Origin: Betaproteobacteria bacterium RIFCSPLOWO2_02_FULL_66_14
Lineage (GTDB): Bacteria > Pseudomonadota > Gammaproteobacteria > Burkholderiales > SG8-39
NCBI GenBank assembly: GCA_001770475.1
Contig: MERB01000007.1
Location: 202-41,357 of the forward strand
Reading direction: 5' to 3'
DNA length: 41,156 bases
Part shown: positions 3,744 to 22,190 of the stretch, in pieces
Layout: each line of letters begins with the position of its first letter
Numbering within the stretch: the first letter of the stretch is position 1
Notes under the pieces: generated by a model
Database searches by the model: none
What the model was told of the DNA's origin: nothing
What the model saw: the letters and a program-made list of their open reading frames with translations, nothing else
Position numbers and translations under genes: made by a program

Positions 3744-5669
3744 CTACTTGCGCGAGGCGAGGTAGTGCAGCGGGCCGCCGCGGAAGGGCGCGAATCCGGT
3801 GCCGAACACGAGGCCGGCGTCGATCAGATCGGCGTCCGCAACGATGCCCTGGGCGTGCACCGCCGACGCTTCCGTGAGATAGGGCTCGATCAGGGCCTCG
3901 GTCAGATTGCCGTCCGTGCGTGCCGCCGCCGCCTTCACCGGCTTACCGCGCTCCCAGCGATAGATGCCCTGGCCGCTCTTGCGGCCGAGGTGACCGAGGG
4001 CGACCTTGTTGAGAAGCGCTCGCGGGGCGTCGGGTTCGCCCGAGGCGCCTTTCCTTGCGAGTTCCTTTCCCGCGGCCAGGCAGATGTCGAGACCGACCGT
4101 GTCCGCAAGTTCCATCGGTCCCATCGGCATCCCGAACGCCTCCATCGTCGCGTCGATCGCTTCGGGCTGAATGCCTTCGTCGAGCATTCGAAAGGCATTC
4201 TGGAGGTAGGGCCCGAGAACGCGATTGACGAGGAACCCGGGCGAATCCTTCACCGGCAGCGGCAACTTGTCGAGGAGACGCGCGAAAGCCGCGGCTTTTG
4301 CGGCGAGTTCAGGCGCGGTGCGCTCGCCCGAGATGATCTCGACCAGCATCATCTGCGGCACCGGATTGAAGAAGTGGATGCCGACGAGCCGCGCGGGATC
4401 CTTGAGCGCGGCGGCGATGTCGGCGAGCTTGAGGCTGGAAGTGTTGGTCGCGAGCACGGCGTCGGGCCGCGCGGTCGCCTCCACCCGCTCGAACAACTCG
4501 CGCTTCGCAGCGAGATTCTCGAAGATCGCCTCGATCACGAGATCGGCATGCGCCACGCCGGCGCCGGAGACATCCGGAATCAGCCGGTCGAGCGCGTCGC
4601 GCACGCGGCGTCGATCCCGAAGCCTGCGCTCGAAGAGCTTCGCCGCTCGCTTCACCGCGGGCGCGAGCCGCTCGGGCGAGGTGTCCTGCAGCGTCACCTT
4701 GATGCCGCGCATCGCGCACACCGCAGCGATGTCGCCACCCATCACGCCGGCGCCGATCACGTGAACGTGCCCGGGATTGAATTCGGCGCCCTTGCCGAGC
4801 GACTTCAGGCGGTCCTGAAGAAAGAACAGCCGGATCAGGTTCGCCGTGGTCGGGTGCTCGAACAGCGCCTTGAGCGAACAGGCCGGATCGTCCTTGCAGG
4901 CGATGGGATCGCCGTCGTATTTCCGCCAGGCGTGCAGGATCGCGTACGGCGCCGGGTAGTGTTCCGGTCGCGCGCGTTTCGCAACCTGCTTGCGCGCCTG
5001 CGACACGACCAGCCCGCGCAGCGGCCCGAGCATCAGGCGCTGGAGCAAAGGCAGTCGCCTCGGCGCAGGTGCCGCGAGCGTCACCATGCGCACGGTGTTC
5101 TCGAAGATCCGCAGCGGCACCGCCTCCGTCACGAGGCCGATGCGCTTTGCCTTGCGCGCGTCCACGCTCTTTCCGGTGAGCAGCATGTCGAACGCGGCCG
5201 CCGGGCCGACCAGCTTCGGCAGCCACATCAGACCGTGCCAGCTTGGCCAGATGCCGAGCATCACTTCGGGGAACGCAAAGCGCGTCTTCGGATCGTCGAG
5301 CGCGACGCGGTAGCGGCAGCCGAGCGCGAGCTCAAGCCCGCCACCCATGCAGAAACCGTTCACCATCGCGGTGGTCGGAAAGGGCAGGTCGCGCAGTTTC
5401 TGCGTCGCGTCCCAGCCCTTCCGGTTGAACTCGAACGCCTCGTCCGCGGTTTTCAACTTGACGAATTCGTTGACGTCCGCACCCGCGATGAAGTTGTCCT
5501 TCGCCGAGCGGATCACGAGGCCCTTGGGGCGCTCGGCGGCGATCGCATCGAGCGCTCCGCTCAGCTCTTCGATCGCATCGCGCGAAAACGTGTTCGTCGA
5601 TTCACCCGCCTTGTCGAACGTCAGCCAGACGAGTCCCTGCGAATCCTTTTCCCAGCGCCAGTGTTTCAT
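3744..5669 (-). CDS. fadB: bifunctional enoyl-CoA hydratase / 3-hydroxyacyl-CoA dehydrogenase (FadB-like)
   Basis: 641-aa multifunctional beta-oxidation enzyme. Residues 1-190 are a crotonase domain with GADVNEF (oxyanion hole region) and the two catalytic glutamates in GGGLELAL (E113) and FPEVMLGIWP (E135). Residues about 300-480 are the NAD-binding 3-hydroxyacyl-CoA dehydrogenase domain with the dinucleotide motif GAGVMG (306-311) and GIHFFNPVP containing the catalytic histidine. The C-terminal helical dehydrogenase domain follows (DSPGFLVNRVLGPYLQNAFRML). It is shorter than E. coli FadB (729 aa) and closer to the compact proteobacterial type. The thiolase gene lies upstream in the same direction, separated by 197 nt that hold dyad repeats. 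The thioesterase follows directly. The symbol is used in a functional sense. Confidence 0.93.
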   Translation of the reverse strand: MKHWRWEKDSQGLVWLTFDKAGESTNTFSRDAIEELSGALDAIAAERPKGLVIRSAKDNFIAGADVNEFVKLKTADEAFEFNRKGWDATQKLRDLPFPTTAMVNGFCMGGGLELALGCRYRVALDDPKTRFAFPEVMLGIWPSWHGLMWLPKLVGPAAAFDMLLTGKSVDARKAKRIGLVTEAVPLRIFENTVRMVTLAAPAPRRLPLLQRLMLGPLRGLVVSQARKQVAKRARPEHYPAPYAILHAWRKYDGDPIACKDDPACSLKALFEHPTTANLIRLFFLQDRLKSLGKGAEFNPGHVHVIGAGVMGGDIAAVCAMRGIKVTLQDTSPERLAPAVKRAAKLFERRLRDRRRVRDALDRLIPDVSGAGVAHADLVIEAIFENLAAKRELFERVEATARPDAVLATNTSSLKLADIAAALKDPARLVGIHFFNPVPQMMLVEIISGERTAPELAAKAAAFARLLDKLPLPVKDSPGFLVNRVLGPYLQNAFRMLDEGIQPEAIDATMEAFGMPMGPMELADTVGLDICLAAGKELARKGASGEPDAPRALLNKVALGHLGRKSGQGIYRWERGKPVKAAAARTDGNLTEALIEPYLTEASAVHAQGIVADADLIDAGLVFGTGFAPFRGGPLHYLASRK

Positions 5670-5709
5670 TTTTGGTTTTTCCAGAGGTTGGTGATTGCCC
5701 CGTCACTTC

Positions 5710-5840
5710 GATTCGGGCGCCAACTCGGCAGATCGGGGGAAGGGCAGATTTTCGGCCGCGGCATCGGTTTCGGTGTTCATCAGGCCTGCCGACTTGGCGC
5801 GGTGATTCTCGCGCCAAGCCGGCAGATCATGGGAAGGTCA
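5710..5840. repeat. three-arm dyad repeat between fadI and fadB
   Basis: Three related 15-nt arms lie here. Arm A (5717-5731) and arm C (5811-5825) are in the same orientation and differ at two positions. Arm B (5786-5800, CTGCCGACTTGGCGC) is inverted and complementary to either with a single mismatch. B and C form a hairpin with a 10-nt loop; B can instead pair with A. A and C sit inside longer direct repeats (about 37 nt, 5710-5746 and 5804-5840, roughly three quarters identical). The arm ends CTGCCGACTT are shared with the large palindrome at 7240-7285 on the other side of fadI. No open reading frame explains the segment. Confidence 0.75.
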
Positions 5841-5866
5841 AAGTCGCGCCGTCGTAAACCCACGCG

Positions 5867-7171
5867 CTACACCGCCTCTACGAGCATCGCGCCGCCCAGC
5901 CCGCCGCCGATGCAGATCGCGGCCATGCCGCGCTTTGCCTTGTTGCGTTTCAGCGTCTTCAGCAGGTGGAGCACGATGCGCGCTCCGGAAGCACCCACCG
6001 GATGTCCGAGCGCTATCGCGCCGCCGTCGACGTTGAGCCGGGATTGGTCGAGTTCACCGAGCGCCGCTTCGAGGCCGAGTTGCTCGCGGCAGTAGGTATC
6101 GTCCTTCCACGCCTCAAGGCACCCGAGCACCTGCGCGGCGAAGGCCTCGTTGATCTCCCAGTACTCGGGATCGTTCAGCGCGAGGCCATGGCGCTTCAGG
6201 ATGGGCGTCGCTGCGTGCACCGGTCCAAGGCCCATCTGGGCAGGATCGAGGCCCGCCCACTCGGAATCGACGATGCGGCCGATCGGCTCGAGGCCATGGC
6301 GTTTCACCGCCTCGTCGGACGCGAGCACGAGCCAGGCGGCGCCATCGGTGATCTGAGATGAATTGCCCGGCGTGACGTTGCCGTACTTGCGGTCGAAGAA
6401 CGGCTTCAGCTTGGCGAGGTTCTCGACCGAGGAATCGCGGCGCACGCCGTCGTCGAGCGCATACGCATTGCCGTCGCGGTCATACACCGCCTCGACTTCG
6501 CCGCCGCCCGAGGCGAGCGCGCCGCCATCCTGCGCAGCGACCACACGCTGGTGGCTGCGCACCGAAAAGGCATCCATCTGCGCGCGCGTGATGCCGAAAC
6601 GGTGCGCGAGGTTCTCCGCGGTCTGCCCCATGAGCAGGCCGACCATCGGGTCGGTGAGCCCCTTCATGATGGCGATCACCGGTGCGAGCAGCGCCTTCAC
6701 CGGCAGCTTCGCGAAGTGCGCCGCCTTCTGTCCAGCGGTTCGCGCCTGCATCATGTTCGCGAACCACAGCACCATCGCGTCGGCATACAGCAAGGGGGCG
6801 CGCGAAAGCGCGTCGACGCCGCCCGCGAGCACCAGGTGGGAGCGGCCGGCGAGGATGTTGTTGATGCCTGAGTCGAGCGCCTGCATGCCGCTCGCGCAGT
6901 TGCGCATCACCGTCCAGCCCGGAACTTTCTGACCGCATCCCAGGCGCAGCGCCACCACCCGGCCGACGTTGACTTCGTCGACCGAAGGCGCGGCGCAGCC
7001 GAGAATCACTTCGTCGAAGTCCGTGGGTGCGAATTTCTGCCGCAACAGGAGCGCGCGCCCCGCCTGGGTCGCGAGATCGCCCCCGGAAAACGGTCCCGGG
7101 CGGTTCTTCGCTTTGATGAACGGCGTGCGTGCGCCGTCGACTACGTACACCGGTCTTGTCATGGCTGCCAT
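5867..7171 (-). CDS. fadI: acetyl-CoA C-acyltransferase (3-ketoacyl-CoA thiolase)
   Basis: Thiolase of beta-oxidation, releasing acetyl-CoA from 3-ketoacyl-CoA. From the chosen ATG at 7171 the protein has 434 aa, close to the length of FadI. The catalytic cysteine is C92 in RNCASGMQALDSG. The C-terminal GHPVGASGARI carries the catalytic histidine and CIGGGLGGAM the second cysteine. I chose 7171 rather than the longer frame (7222) because AGGAG lies 7 nt upstream; the ATG at 7162 would place it 16 nt away. The gene lies between fadE and the fadB-like gene on the same strand, with a dyad-symmetric element on each side. Confidence 0.94.
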   Translation of the reverse strand: MAAMTRPVYVVDGARTPFIKAKNRPGPFSGGDLATQAGRALLLRQKFAPTDFDEVILGCAAPSVDEVNVGRVVALRLGCGQKVPGWTVMRNCASGMQALDSGINNILAGRSHLVLAGGVDALSRAPLLYADAMVLWFANMMQARTAGQKAAHFAKLPVKALLAPVIAIMKGLTDPMVGLLMGQTAENLAHRFGITRAQMDAFSVRSHQRVVAAQDGGALASGGGEVEAVYDRDGNAYALDDGVRRDSSVENLAKLKPFFDRKYGNVTPGNSSQITDGAAWLVLASDEAVKRHGLEPIGRIVDSEWAGLDPAQMGLGPVHAATPILKRHGLALNDPEYWEINEAFAAQVLGCLEAWKDDTYCREQLGLEAALGELDQSRLNVDGGAIALGHPVGASGARIVLHLLKTLKRNKAKRGMAAICIGGGLGGAMLVEAV

Positions 7172-7239
7172 GCTGCATCTCCTCTTGTCCCTGCTGCCGT
7201 TCCGCCAAGGGCGGCGCGGCATCGCGGGTTTACCGATCT

Positions 7240-7285
7240 CTGCCGACTTCGAAGTTTCGCGCGCGCGAAACTTCGAAGTCGGCAG
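7240..7285. repeat. perfect 46-bp palindrome between fadE and fadI
   Basis: The 23 bases 7240-7262 are the exact reverse complement of 7263-7285, with no spacer and no mismatch. The arm begins CTGCCGACTTCGAAG and ends in a CG-alternating centre. As RNA it would fold into a very stable hairpin between the fadE stop (7341) and the fadI start (7171). There is no T-tract after it in the direction of transcription, so it is not a standard terminator. Its outer 10 nt match arm B of the element at 5786-5800. Confidence 0.9.
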
Positions 7286-7340
7286 ACCGATGGAGTCAAA
7301 ACCGCGTTATCGTTTCCAATGGAACGGTCTCATCCAACCT

Positions 7341-9827
7341 TCACGCCGCCTTCGCGGTTACCTCGTCCTGCGCCAGCCGCCGCACGATCTCGGCGCGGCC
7401 GAAATCGGGTTCGAAATCATCCACCTGGATCACGCGCTTGCGTAGCGTCTCCTTGCGCCGCCAGAGCGCGAGTTCCGCTTCGCTGATCACGCCTTGGGCG
7501 CGTGCCGTGGCGGCCGTGTCGACGCCCGACCGGGTGACGAGCTTGCCGCCTTTGACTGCTTCGCGCAGTTTCTTTTCGATCGGCTCGCATTCCAGCGTGG
7601 CATGGAACGCGGCTTCGAGCGCGCCCGTGATGTCGGCTTCGTTCTTGCCGACGTACATCCCCGCGGTCAGCCGGTCGCGCGCGGCCCCGGGCTCCAGCAC
7701 GATCTTCGCCGAGCGGTGGTTGTGCCGGTCCTTCGCGGGCCGGAACGGCGTGCCGAGCGGGAACACCACCCAGCGCAGCAGTCCGCGCAGCGCAGGGACC
7801 GGGAAATTGGCATAAATGGCGTCGATCGCCTGCTGCGCCTGCCACAGCGCATCGCGCACCGACCAGTGGATCAGCGGCAGGTCCTCGCGCGGGCGGCCCT
7901 GGTCCTCGTAGCGCTTCAGCGTGGCCGAGATCAGGTACATCATCGAAAGCACGTCGCCGAGGCGCGCGGAGGTCTTCTCCTTGCGCTTGAGTGCGCCGCC
8001 CATCGCGAGCATCGACATGTCGGCGAGGAACGCGAACGCCGCCGACAGGTGTCCGACGCGCTGGTAGTAGCGCGCCATCTCGGGGGCTGCCGCCTGCGGC
8101 ACCTGCGCGAGGCGCGAGCCCGTGAGGCTGTGAACGAAGGCGCGCACAGCGTTCGCGAGCGTGTGCCCGACGTGAGAAGTGAGCGCGTCGTCGAATTCGC
8201 GTGACGCCTCGCCGCCCGACATCTCCTTCGCGGCGCGCATCTCGCGCAGCACGTACGGGTGGCAGCGGATCGCGCCCTGGCCGAAGATGATGAGGCTTCT
8301 CGTCAGGATGTTGGCGCCCTCGACCGTAATGCCGACCGGCATCACCTGGTAGCCGCGGCCGATGTAATTGCTCGGCCCGAGGCAGATTCCCTTGCCGCCG
8401 TGGATGTCCATCGAGTGGTTGATGAGTTCGCGCGCGCGCTCGGTCATGTGGTACTTCACGATCGCCGAGATCACCGAAGGTTTCTCGCCCGCGTCCAGCG
8501 CACCCGCGGTCATGACGCGAGTGGCGTCCATCATGTAGGTATTCGCGGCGATGCGGCCGAGCGATTCCTCGACGCCTTCGAGCTTGCCGATCGGCGTCCT
8601 GAACTGGCTTCGCACGCGGGCGTAGGCGCCGGTGTACCGCGCGAGCGCCTTGGCGCCGCCGACCGAGGAGGCGGGCAGCGAGATCGAGCGGCCTGCGGCG
8701 AGGCAGTTCATCAGCATCATCCAGCCCTTGCCCGCGTATTCGCGGCCGCCGATGATCCACTCGATCGGCATGAAGACGTCCTTGCCGCGGGTCGGCCCGT
8801 TCTGGAACGCAGCGTTGAGCGGCAGGTGCCGGCGTCCGATCTCGACGCCCGGCGTGTGCGCCGGAACGAGCGCGCAGGTGATGCCGAGATCCTCGCGATC
8901 GCCGAGCAGGTGCTCGGGGTCATAGAGCCTGAAAGCAAGCCCGATCAGCGTCGACACCGGGCCTAGCGTGATGTAGCGCTTGTCCCAGGTCACGCGCATG
9001 CCGAGCACTTCCTTGCCCTGCCAGTGGCCCTTGCACACGATGCCGAAATCCGGGATCGAGGCCGCATCCGAGCCCGCTTCGGGGCTGGTGAGCGCGAAGC
9101 AAGGCACGTCCTGTCCGCGCGCCAGCCGCGGCAGATAGTGGTTCTTCTGCTCGTCGGTGCCGTAGTGCAGCAGCAGCTCGGCCGGCCCGAGGGAATTCGG
9201 CACCATTGCCGACACGGCGAGCGTGTTCGAGCGCGTGGAGAGTTTGGTGATTACGGCGGAGTGCGCGAGCGCCGAGAAGCCGAGGCCGCCGTAGCGTTTC
9301 GGGATGATCATGCCGAGGAAGCCCTTGTCCTTCAGGTATTGCCAGACGCGGGGCGGAAGGTCAAAGCGTTCGTGGGTCACCTCCCAGTCGTTCACCATGC
9401 CGCAGAGTTCCTCGCACGGCCCATCGACGAATGCCTGCTCCTCGGAGTTCAGTTTCGGTTCCGGCATCGCGAGCAGTTTTTCCCAGTCGGGGCGTCCCGA
9501 GAACAGGTCGGCGTCCCACCAAACGGTGCCGGCGTCGATCGCCTCCTTTTCGGTCTGCGACATGTCCGGGAGAATTCGCCGGTAGATGGCGAGAATCGGA
9601 TCGCTGATGAGGCGGCGCCGAAGCGCAGGGACATTGAGCACTGCCGCGACGATGACGAACAGCACCGCAAGCACCGTGTTGGTCGTGGCGCCGAAACCCG
9701 CGACCGCGCCGAGGTAGGCAGCAAGCGCGCCGCCGGCGACGGTCCAGGCGATGATCGGCGCCCGGAGGTACGCGAGCACGAAGAATGCCGCGATCGCGGC
9801 CAGAAATACGAGCAGGTATCCGAACAT
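7341..9827 (-). CDS. fadE: long-chain acyl-CoA dehydrogenase (FadE type)
   Basis: 828-aa FAD-dependent acyl-CoA dehydrogenase that makes the first double bond in beta-oxidation. The length matches the FadE family (814 aa in E. coli), much longer than ordinary acyl-CoA dehydrogenases. The N-terminus has two or three hydrophobic segments within about the first 65 residues (YLLVFLAAIAAFFVLAYL and following), consistent with membrane association. The acyl-CoA dehydrogenase core follows, with FALTSPEAGSDAASIPDFG (substrate and flavin region) and HGGKGICLGPSNYIGRGYQ. A long FadE-specific C-terminal domain closes the protein. It starts 27 nt after the psrA-like stop and is probably on the same transcript. 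The family's usual electron acceptor, ETF, is not in the window. Confidence 0.95.
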   Translation of the reverse strand: MFGYLLVFLAAIAAFFVLAYLRAPIIAWTVAGGALAAYLGAVAGFGATTNTVLAVLFVIVAAVLNVPALRRRLISDPILAIYRRILPDMSQTEKEAIDAGTVWWDADLFSGRPDWEKLLAMPEPKLNSEEQAFVDGPCEELCGMVNDWEVTHERFDLPPRVWQYLKDKGFLGMIIPKRYGGLGFSALAHSAVITKLSTRSNTLAVSAMVPNSLGPAELLLHYGTDEQKNHYLPRLARGQDVPCFALTSPEAGSDAASIPDFGIVCKGHWQGKEVLGMRVTWDKRYITLGPVSTLIGLAFRLYDPEHLLGDREDLGITCALVPAHTPGVEIGRRHLPLNAAFQNGPTRGKDVFMPIEWIIGGREYAGKGWMMLMNCLAAGRSISLPASSVGGAKALARYTGAYARVRSQFRTPIGKLEGVEESLGRIAANTYMMDATRVMTAGALDAGEKPSVISAIVKYHMTERARELINHSMDIHGGKGICLGPSNYIGRGYQVMPVGITVEGANILTRSLIIFGQGAIRCHPYVLREMRAAKEMSGGEASREFDDALTSHVGHTLANAVRAFVHSLTGSRLAQVPQAAAPEMARYYQRVGHLSAAFAFLADMSMLAMGGALKRKEKTSARLGDVLSMMYLISATLKRYEDQGRPREDLPLIHWSVRDALWQAQQAIDAIYANFPVPALRGLLRWVVFPLGTPFRPAKDRHNHRSAKIVLEPGAARDRLTAGMYVGKNEADITGALEAAFHATLECEPIEKKLREAVKGGKLVTRSGVDTAATARAQGVISEAELALWRRKETLRKRVIQVDDFEPDFGRAEIVRRLAQDEVTAKAA

Positions 9828-21856: not shown

Positions 21857-22190
21857 GCCGCACCCGAACTTTCCGGCGGTCCCGCGTGCTGGCTCGAGGA
21901 TCTGGCGTCCTGAGTCACAAGTTCGCATACGGATATTCCCCGTTTCTGGTCCGATCTCGTGATTCCCTGCGCTTCTCGGCGTTGCGGGGAATCATGAGAC
22001 ACCGAAGCGACCCTCGGGCACGAACATGGCCCACGGCGCACCGCCGTGGCTGCAGTGTCTCGGGAGTTCGGCAACAACGGCCGAAGTCCCGGGATCGAAG
22101 AAAACCATCACGGATTTCGGACTCGGCACGCTGGCGGGCCGGCGCGTACGCGTGCTAGCATACCAACTGGTTGTCTAGTTGGAGGTGGGG
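21857..22190. other. gene-free, hairpin-rich gap upstream of the toxin-antitoxin pair
   Basis: No convincing gene lies in these 334 bp. Three stable hairpins do. One is 21955-21970 with 21984-21999: 16 pairs including two G-U, with a 13-nt loop. One is 22031-22037 with 22043-22049 (CCACGGC/GCCGTGG). One is 22061-22072 with 22080-22091: 12 pairs with one mismatch. GAGACAC (21996-22002) can also pair with GTGTCTC (22055-22061), enclosing the middle hairpin and competing with the first. The first part, 21857-21950, shows no structure I can support. Confidence 0.6.
22153..22182. promoter_or_regulatory. candidate operator of the toxin-antitoxin pair
   Basis: TGCTAGCA (22153-22160) is a perfect 8-bp palindrome. 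Three bases later CCAACT (22163-22168) and AGTTGG (22177-22182) form an inverted repeat with an 8-nt spacer that ends at the Shine-Dalgarno. Antitoxin autoregulation through such dyads is usual for this family. The site is inferred from position. Confidence 0.45.

Follow-up and report, generated by a model that had tools for sequence, protein, structure and literature searches.

The two hairpins that flank the thiolase gene fadI in a betaproteobacterial fad operon are very probably copies of a single dispersed intergenic palindromic repeat, which spreads or persists at the DNA level and plays no part specific to fad. The stretch of 41,156 nucleotides analyzed here (the window) lies on contig C7 of a betaproteobacterial MAG (G000; 2.43 Mb, 62 contigs, estimated to be 86.6% complete). 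In this genome, the repeat of ~90 nt is represented by ~88 units in ~57 intergenic gaps. This census rests on model searches, in which 148 strand-wise matches of a wider covariance model (R2) and a few additional matches of a narrower one (R1) were merged.

Hairpins and repeat units around fadI

The window carries fadE, fadI, and fadB on the minus strand (Table 1), with gaps of 178 nt between fadE and fadI and 197 nt between fadI and fadB. Relatives found for FadI came nearly all from betaproteobacterial MAGs or genomes. The longest open reading frame of fadI begins at position 7222, within the inserted repeat; we preferred a start at 7171 because a conserved AGGAG upstream of it and the starts in the congeners agree, and both point to this position.

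Table 1. Genes, repeat units, and stem-loop cores located in the window
Feature	Position	Strand	Basis
fadB (enoyl-CoA hydratase / 3-hydroxyacyl-CoA dehydrogenase)	3744..5669	-	Pfam 3HCDH_N, ECH_1
Second, decayed member of a two-unit array, contains arm A (5717-5731)	5661..5757	.	R2 with filters off, direct repeat
Unit between fadI and fadB (stem-loop with both flanks)	5760..5851	+	R2 62.8 bits, E 1e-15; R1 67.4 bits
Stem-loop core of the 5760..5851 unit (arms B and C)	5786..5825	.	Inverted repeat, pairing probabilities, folding z
fadI (thiolase)	5867..7171	-	Pfam Thiolase_N/C; start from the congeners' starts
Unit in the fadE-fadI gap	7212..7310	+	R2 44.6 bits, E 2.5e-10; R1 52.8 bits
Perfect palindrome with 24-nt arms, core of the 7212..7310 unit	7239..7286	.	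Inverted repeat, folding z
fadE (acyl-CoA dehydrogenase)	7341..9827	-	Pfam ACDH_C, Acyl-CoA_dh
Weak further family member	22036..22124	-	R2 18 bits on - (22036-22124), 25.1 bits on + (22059-22107)

The inverted repeats that a sequence-only reading had described in both gaps are real, and the outer motif CTGCCGACTT is indeed common to the two elements. In the fadI-fadB gap, arms of 16 nt (5786-5801 and 5810-5825; 94% complementary) lie 8 nt apart, while those in the fadE-fadI gap (7239-7262 and 7263-7286) comprise 24 nt and are 100% complementary. Folding compared to shuffled sequences gave z scores of -7.7 and -8.2, respectively. The only mismatch of the fadI-fadB core, A.C on the plus strand, corresponds to a G-U pair in the fad (minus-strand) transcript. 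By the orientation of its flanks, this unit runs opposite to the fad genes. The weak family member at 22036-22124 is probably degenerate and lies well away from fad, in the space separating two predicted genes.

The reading had further noted that arm B can pair with arm C as well as with arm A, and the reverse complement of B does match each of them at 14 of 15 positions. The two alternative structures deduced from this are purely formal. As B-C pairs with a probability of ~1 in the full gap transcript compared to ~4e-9 for A-B, and as transcription reaches C ahead of B and A, the gap does not behave as a bistable switch. Arm A belongs to a decayed neighboring unit, of which it is the better-preserved arm: a direct repeat of 37 nt (5710-5746 and 5804-5840; 81% identical, spacing 94) contains A and C. 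R2 matched this unit weakly, and not until the search filters were switched off (10.9 bits, E 0.0015 for 231 bases); the partner of arm A is largely deleted, and the edge of the unit overlaps the start of fadB.

Both inserts are absent from three congeners (G002, G003, and G004). In these genomes, 24 to 29 nt separate fadE from the same methionine of fadI, compared to 178 nt in the window, and fadI and fadB overlap or abut (TGATG, TAATG), compared to 197 nt. In G001, the fourth congener, fadI and fadB lie 67 nt apart with a different hairpin between them, and the fadE-fadI gap lies beyond the contig. The G001 hairpin (L026/L173) reads GTGCTGCAC..GTGCAGCAC, in a gap whose end resembles that of the window's fadI-fadB gap, and is perhaps the remnant of an older unit. 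A family member is also found in the fadI-fadB gap of a more distant genome (L045), where it presumably inserted independently because intermediate genomes have no unit at this site.

Among the ~57 occupied gaps, repeat placement showed no link to fad genes. By chance, ~1.4 neighboring occupied pairs are expected per genome (estimated from 57 gaps and ~2300 genes), and six pairs of unit clusters lie within 3.5 kb of each other. A bistable RNA element (A-B versus B-C) that controls thiolase expression together with its fadE-fadI counterpart is therefore most improbable: the arms exist and fadI has an element on either side, but A-B pairing is negligible, A is made later than both C and B, the congeners lack the insert or, in one case, have a different hairpin, the same element occupies ~55 unrelated gaps, and neighboring occupied gaps are no rarity. 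Comparable competing structures that are kept in relatives, as in a bistable riboswitch or attenuator, were not found at the fadI-fadB gap. Coordinated RNA-level control of the thiolase, one of two explanations put forward in the sequence-only reading, is thus contradicted by copies scattered regardless of fad genes and by close relatives without the inserts, the two observations that it had itself named as refuting, and further by folding, the mixed orientation of units, and the chance expectation for neighboring pairs. Its other explanation, two entries of a small dispersed palindromic repeat into the operon, is borne out by the census and the insert-free orthologous gaps.

Genome-wide census and anatomy of the repeat

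The genome contains 23 exact CTGCCGA..TCGGCAG palindromes with a gap of 8 to 38 nt and none for the reversed control; the copy at C56:17898 equals the fadI-fadB hairpin except for one base. R1 was built on 23 copies and R2 on 55, and both recovered the known units on searching. Units are ~85 to 100 nt long and occur singly or in tandem arrays of two to four, with array spacings of 87 to 173 nt. None of 71 units examined lay within a predicted gene, an approximate figure given the crude, simple codon-model caller used. No Rfam family scored above its gathering threshold in the window, and other copies gave only sub-threshold matches of the chance type; a search of a plasmid collection yielded no match. 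A 10-mer resembling a DNA uptake sequence, CTGCCGACTTNNNNG, was rejected as a candidate: it occurs 10 times, eight of them in hairpins and two apparently single and without a hairpin, and is not enriched alone.

Two near-identical four-unit arrays with a 104-nt period lie on contig C54 (L220:2547-6297), around ~3 kb with an IS1-like transposase and three open reading frames without a Pfam match; the orthologous gap holds only one unit in G002 and G003. On contig C4, a nearby gap (L202:4591-4745) contains two more family hairpins with stems CTCGTGATT.. and CTCGGGACTTCGGC...

Occupied gaps (n = 37) were codirectional in 20, convergent in 12, and divergent in 5 cases, compared to 111, 14, and 26 for unoccupied gaps nearby (n = 151), i.e., convergent gaps are enriched among the occupied ones (P = 8e-4). 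Unit orientation relative to transcription was mixed, with 24 opposite and 11 same (units of arrays counted singly).

The unit consensus consists of GCGAATTTGGGTTTCCCCAGGT, a stem starting with C-T, the loop, the complementary stem strand, and ATCGGGGAACGTCAAAACCGGC; at the stem feet, the consensus of 67 copies is ..CCAGG/TCT stem AGA/TCGGGGAACG. The flanks are conserved and partly complementary to each other, so units match on both strands. The 14-bp stem is hypervariable in sequence except for TT/AA midway along it and CT/AG at its foot, which hardly change, and perfect stems range from 14 to 23 bp. Stem cells were paired in 96.6%, compared to 67% after shuffling and 26 to 46% when slid by 1 to 3 columns; the covariation score was 0.674 versus 0.164 in the control, and 12 of the 14 stem pairs covary with changes on both sides, although the copies are related and the cells thus do not represent independent events. 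Stem mismatches showed no strand preference (9 G.T versus 7 A.C), and on the transcribed strand G.U was in no clear excess over A.C (6 versus 4), both on small numbers. Among copies of the own genome with a confident flank orientation, the core reads GATTC in 16 and GAATC in 9.

Stem changes and core inversions at orthologous sites

Loci of the congeners were fetched and aligned to the window's genome by site (S2, S4, S14, and S16). Many units occupy orthologous sites across the genus, both between the congeners and the window's genome and among the congeners. At S2 (C4:11463 in the own genome), the unit is present in all five species. Its core in G002, TCTGCCGACTTGGCGCGGTACTTCTGCGCCAAGTCGGCAGA, becomes identical to the core in G003 when reverse-complemented, whereas the flanks of the two align forward with 92.3% and 86.0% identity and reach only 54.9% if inverted. 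G001 carries a compensated change from T-A to C-G at this site, and further compensated pair changes in place were observed at S14 and S16. At S4, G003 has the core of the window's genome, TGCGGGGTCCGCA, in inverted form; one of the four units in the genome's own array is inverted as well but adjoins an assembly gap.

Template switching is expected to produce inverted loops together with joint changes in the stem (PMC8794818). An exact core inversion within fixed flanks, seen twice between species, is a signature of this process; recombination between perfect arms could be an alternative cause of the core flips. The repeat shows the combination that this paper regards as the strongest support, namely compensated changes in the stem plus inversion of the whole loop; the hairpins described there belong to rRNA and microRNA, whereas the present case is a dispersed bacterial repeat. 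It is plausible, though we lean slightly against it, that the repeat naturally records DNA template switching throughout, with each new arm mutation copied across and the core flipped in place, so that the stem would drift in sequence yet stay perfect with no RNA selection at all.

The strong stem covariation, the excess of units between convergent genes (P about 8e-4), and the many sites kept across the genus would also suit a functional RNA element, either a bidirectional terminator or an mRNA-end stabilizer, with a stem kept by selection for RNA pairing. We consider this rather unlikely, since the stem is not followed by a T-run and received no terminator call, gene-relative orientation is mixed, G.U is not clearly in excess on the transcribed strand, and exact inversion of the core takes place at the level of DNA. 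At neither fad hairpin was a site resembling an intrinsic terminator (stem, then T-run) found. The enrichment in convergent gaps (12/37 versus 14/151) may leave room for a role at transcript ends.

We favor a dispersed, DNA-borne repeat that has conserved flanks around a stem-loop of at least 14 bp and that inserted, in this lineage, into the gaps on both sides of fadI. It would spread or persist as DNA, its perfect stems being kept mainly by arm-to-arm template switching at the DNA level, with or without selection on structure, and it may have, or have had, a mobilizing enzyme. In the fad mRNA, the hairpins would be at most passive, keeping apart genes which, in three of the four congeners, overlap or abut, and they may protect or expose mRNA ends, as REPs can.

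Distribution, known repeat families, and implications

The repeat is abundant in one family-level clade, and R2 units are abundant in G352, G356, G365, G367, and G375. Searches of Dechloromonas, Azospira, Azoarcus, and Ca. Desulfobacillus genomes found none, and an order-wide R2 search of 39 genomes gave none in 38 other families of the order, a thin sample of one genome each. Given how many units share orthologous positions within the genus, current mobility can only be proposed. The window's genome (86.6% complete) contains no Y1_Tnp (PF01797) gene; multi-copy insertion sequences are often lost from MAGs. The congeners do possess Y1_Tnp genes, and those examined had no adjacent unit. In G001, an inverted repeat, AATAGGGGTCAGAG.., lies beside a RAYT-like Y1_Tnp gene (L193:2243-2292) and is unrelated to the hairpin repeat.

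The repeat shares with REP/BIME elements of the GTAG and CGTC superfamilies (PMC3733652, PMC2817692) its intergenic, palindromic, multi-copy nature, its tandem clusters, the preference for unidirectional and convergent gaps, and an end motif that is conserved while the stems vary from family to family. It differs in its length of ~90 nt, perfect stems of 14 to 23 bp, a stem that is hypervariable within one genome, and the lack of a RAYT link. The consensus of 67 copies has no GTAG tetranucleotide at the stem foot, and no unpaired CGTC ends a palindrome of 20 to 40 bp; an (A)CGTC motif is common only ~9 to 12 nt 3' of the stem, within the longer flank. A RAYT-mobilized REP of either superfamily would fit the intergenic palindrome, the arrays, and the uni- and convergent placement reported for REPs (PMC3733652), but it is very unlikely given the stem foot, stems longer than those of REPs, a genome without Y1_Tnp, and congeneric Y1_Tnp genes without a unit, one of them with AATAGGGGTCAGAG inverted repeats instead. 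A cognate RAYT flanked by the repeat was found neither in the own genome nor at the RAYT loci examined in the congeners.

By size, arrangement, and host class, the nearest description is that of BRE (Beta-proteobacterial repeat element), a likeness by description only. In the available text of PMC3110155, BREs are ~90 bp long, mostly intergenic, tandem, and betaproteobacterial, with site occupancy that varies among relatives, and they are reported from Bordetella, Polaromonas, and Delftia. An intergenic tandem repeat of ~90 bp in betaproteobacteria is also what we found (85 to 100 nt, arrays of two to four), and this fit speaks for membership in the published family; however, the BRE hosts named there belong to other families, where R2 finds nothing (0/38), and a hypervariable stem is not part of the BRE description in that text. 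We regard membership as unlikely. MITE-like ERIC/NEMIS elements are likewise ~100 nt long, largely self-complementary, intergenic, and read into mRNA (general knowledge and PMC3733652), whereas for the repeat, which was compared with insert-free sites, no target duplication or parent transposon was identified. The repeat is REP/ERIC-like, i.e., another intergenic palindromic repeat, whose stem drift is documented unusually well.

For the fad operon, the finding means nothing more than ordinary repeat insertion. If template switching is the true cause, strong covariation, the usual sign of functional RNA, arises here by replication alone. This calls for caution in RNA-motif discovery, where the repeat would score as a structured RNA, and the dozens of covarying, core-flipping hairpins in this genome and its congeners offer a clean test bed for distinguishing RNA function from template switching.
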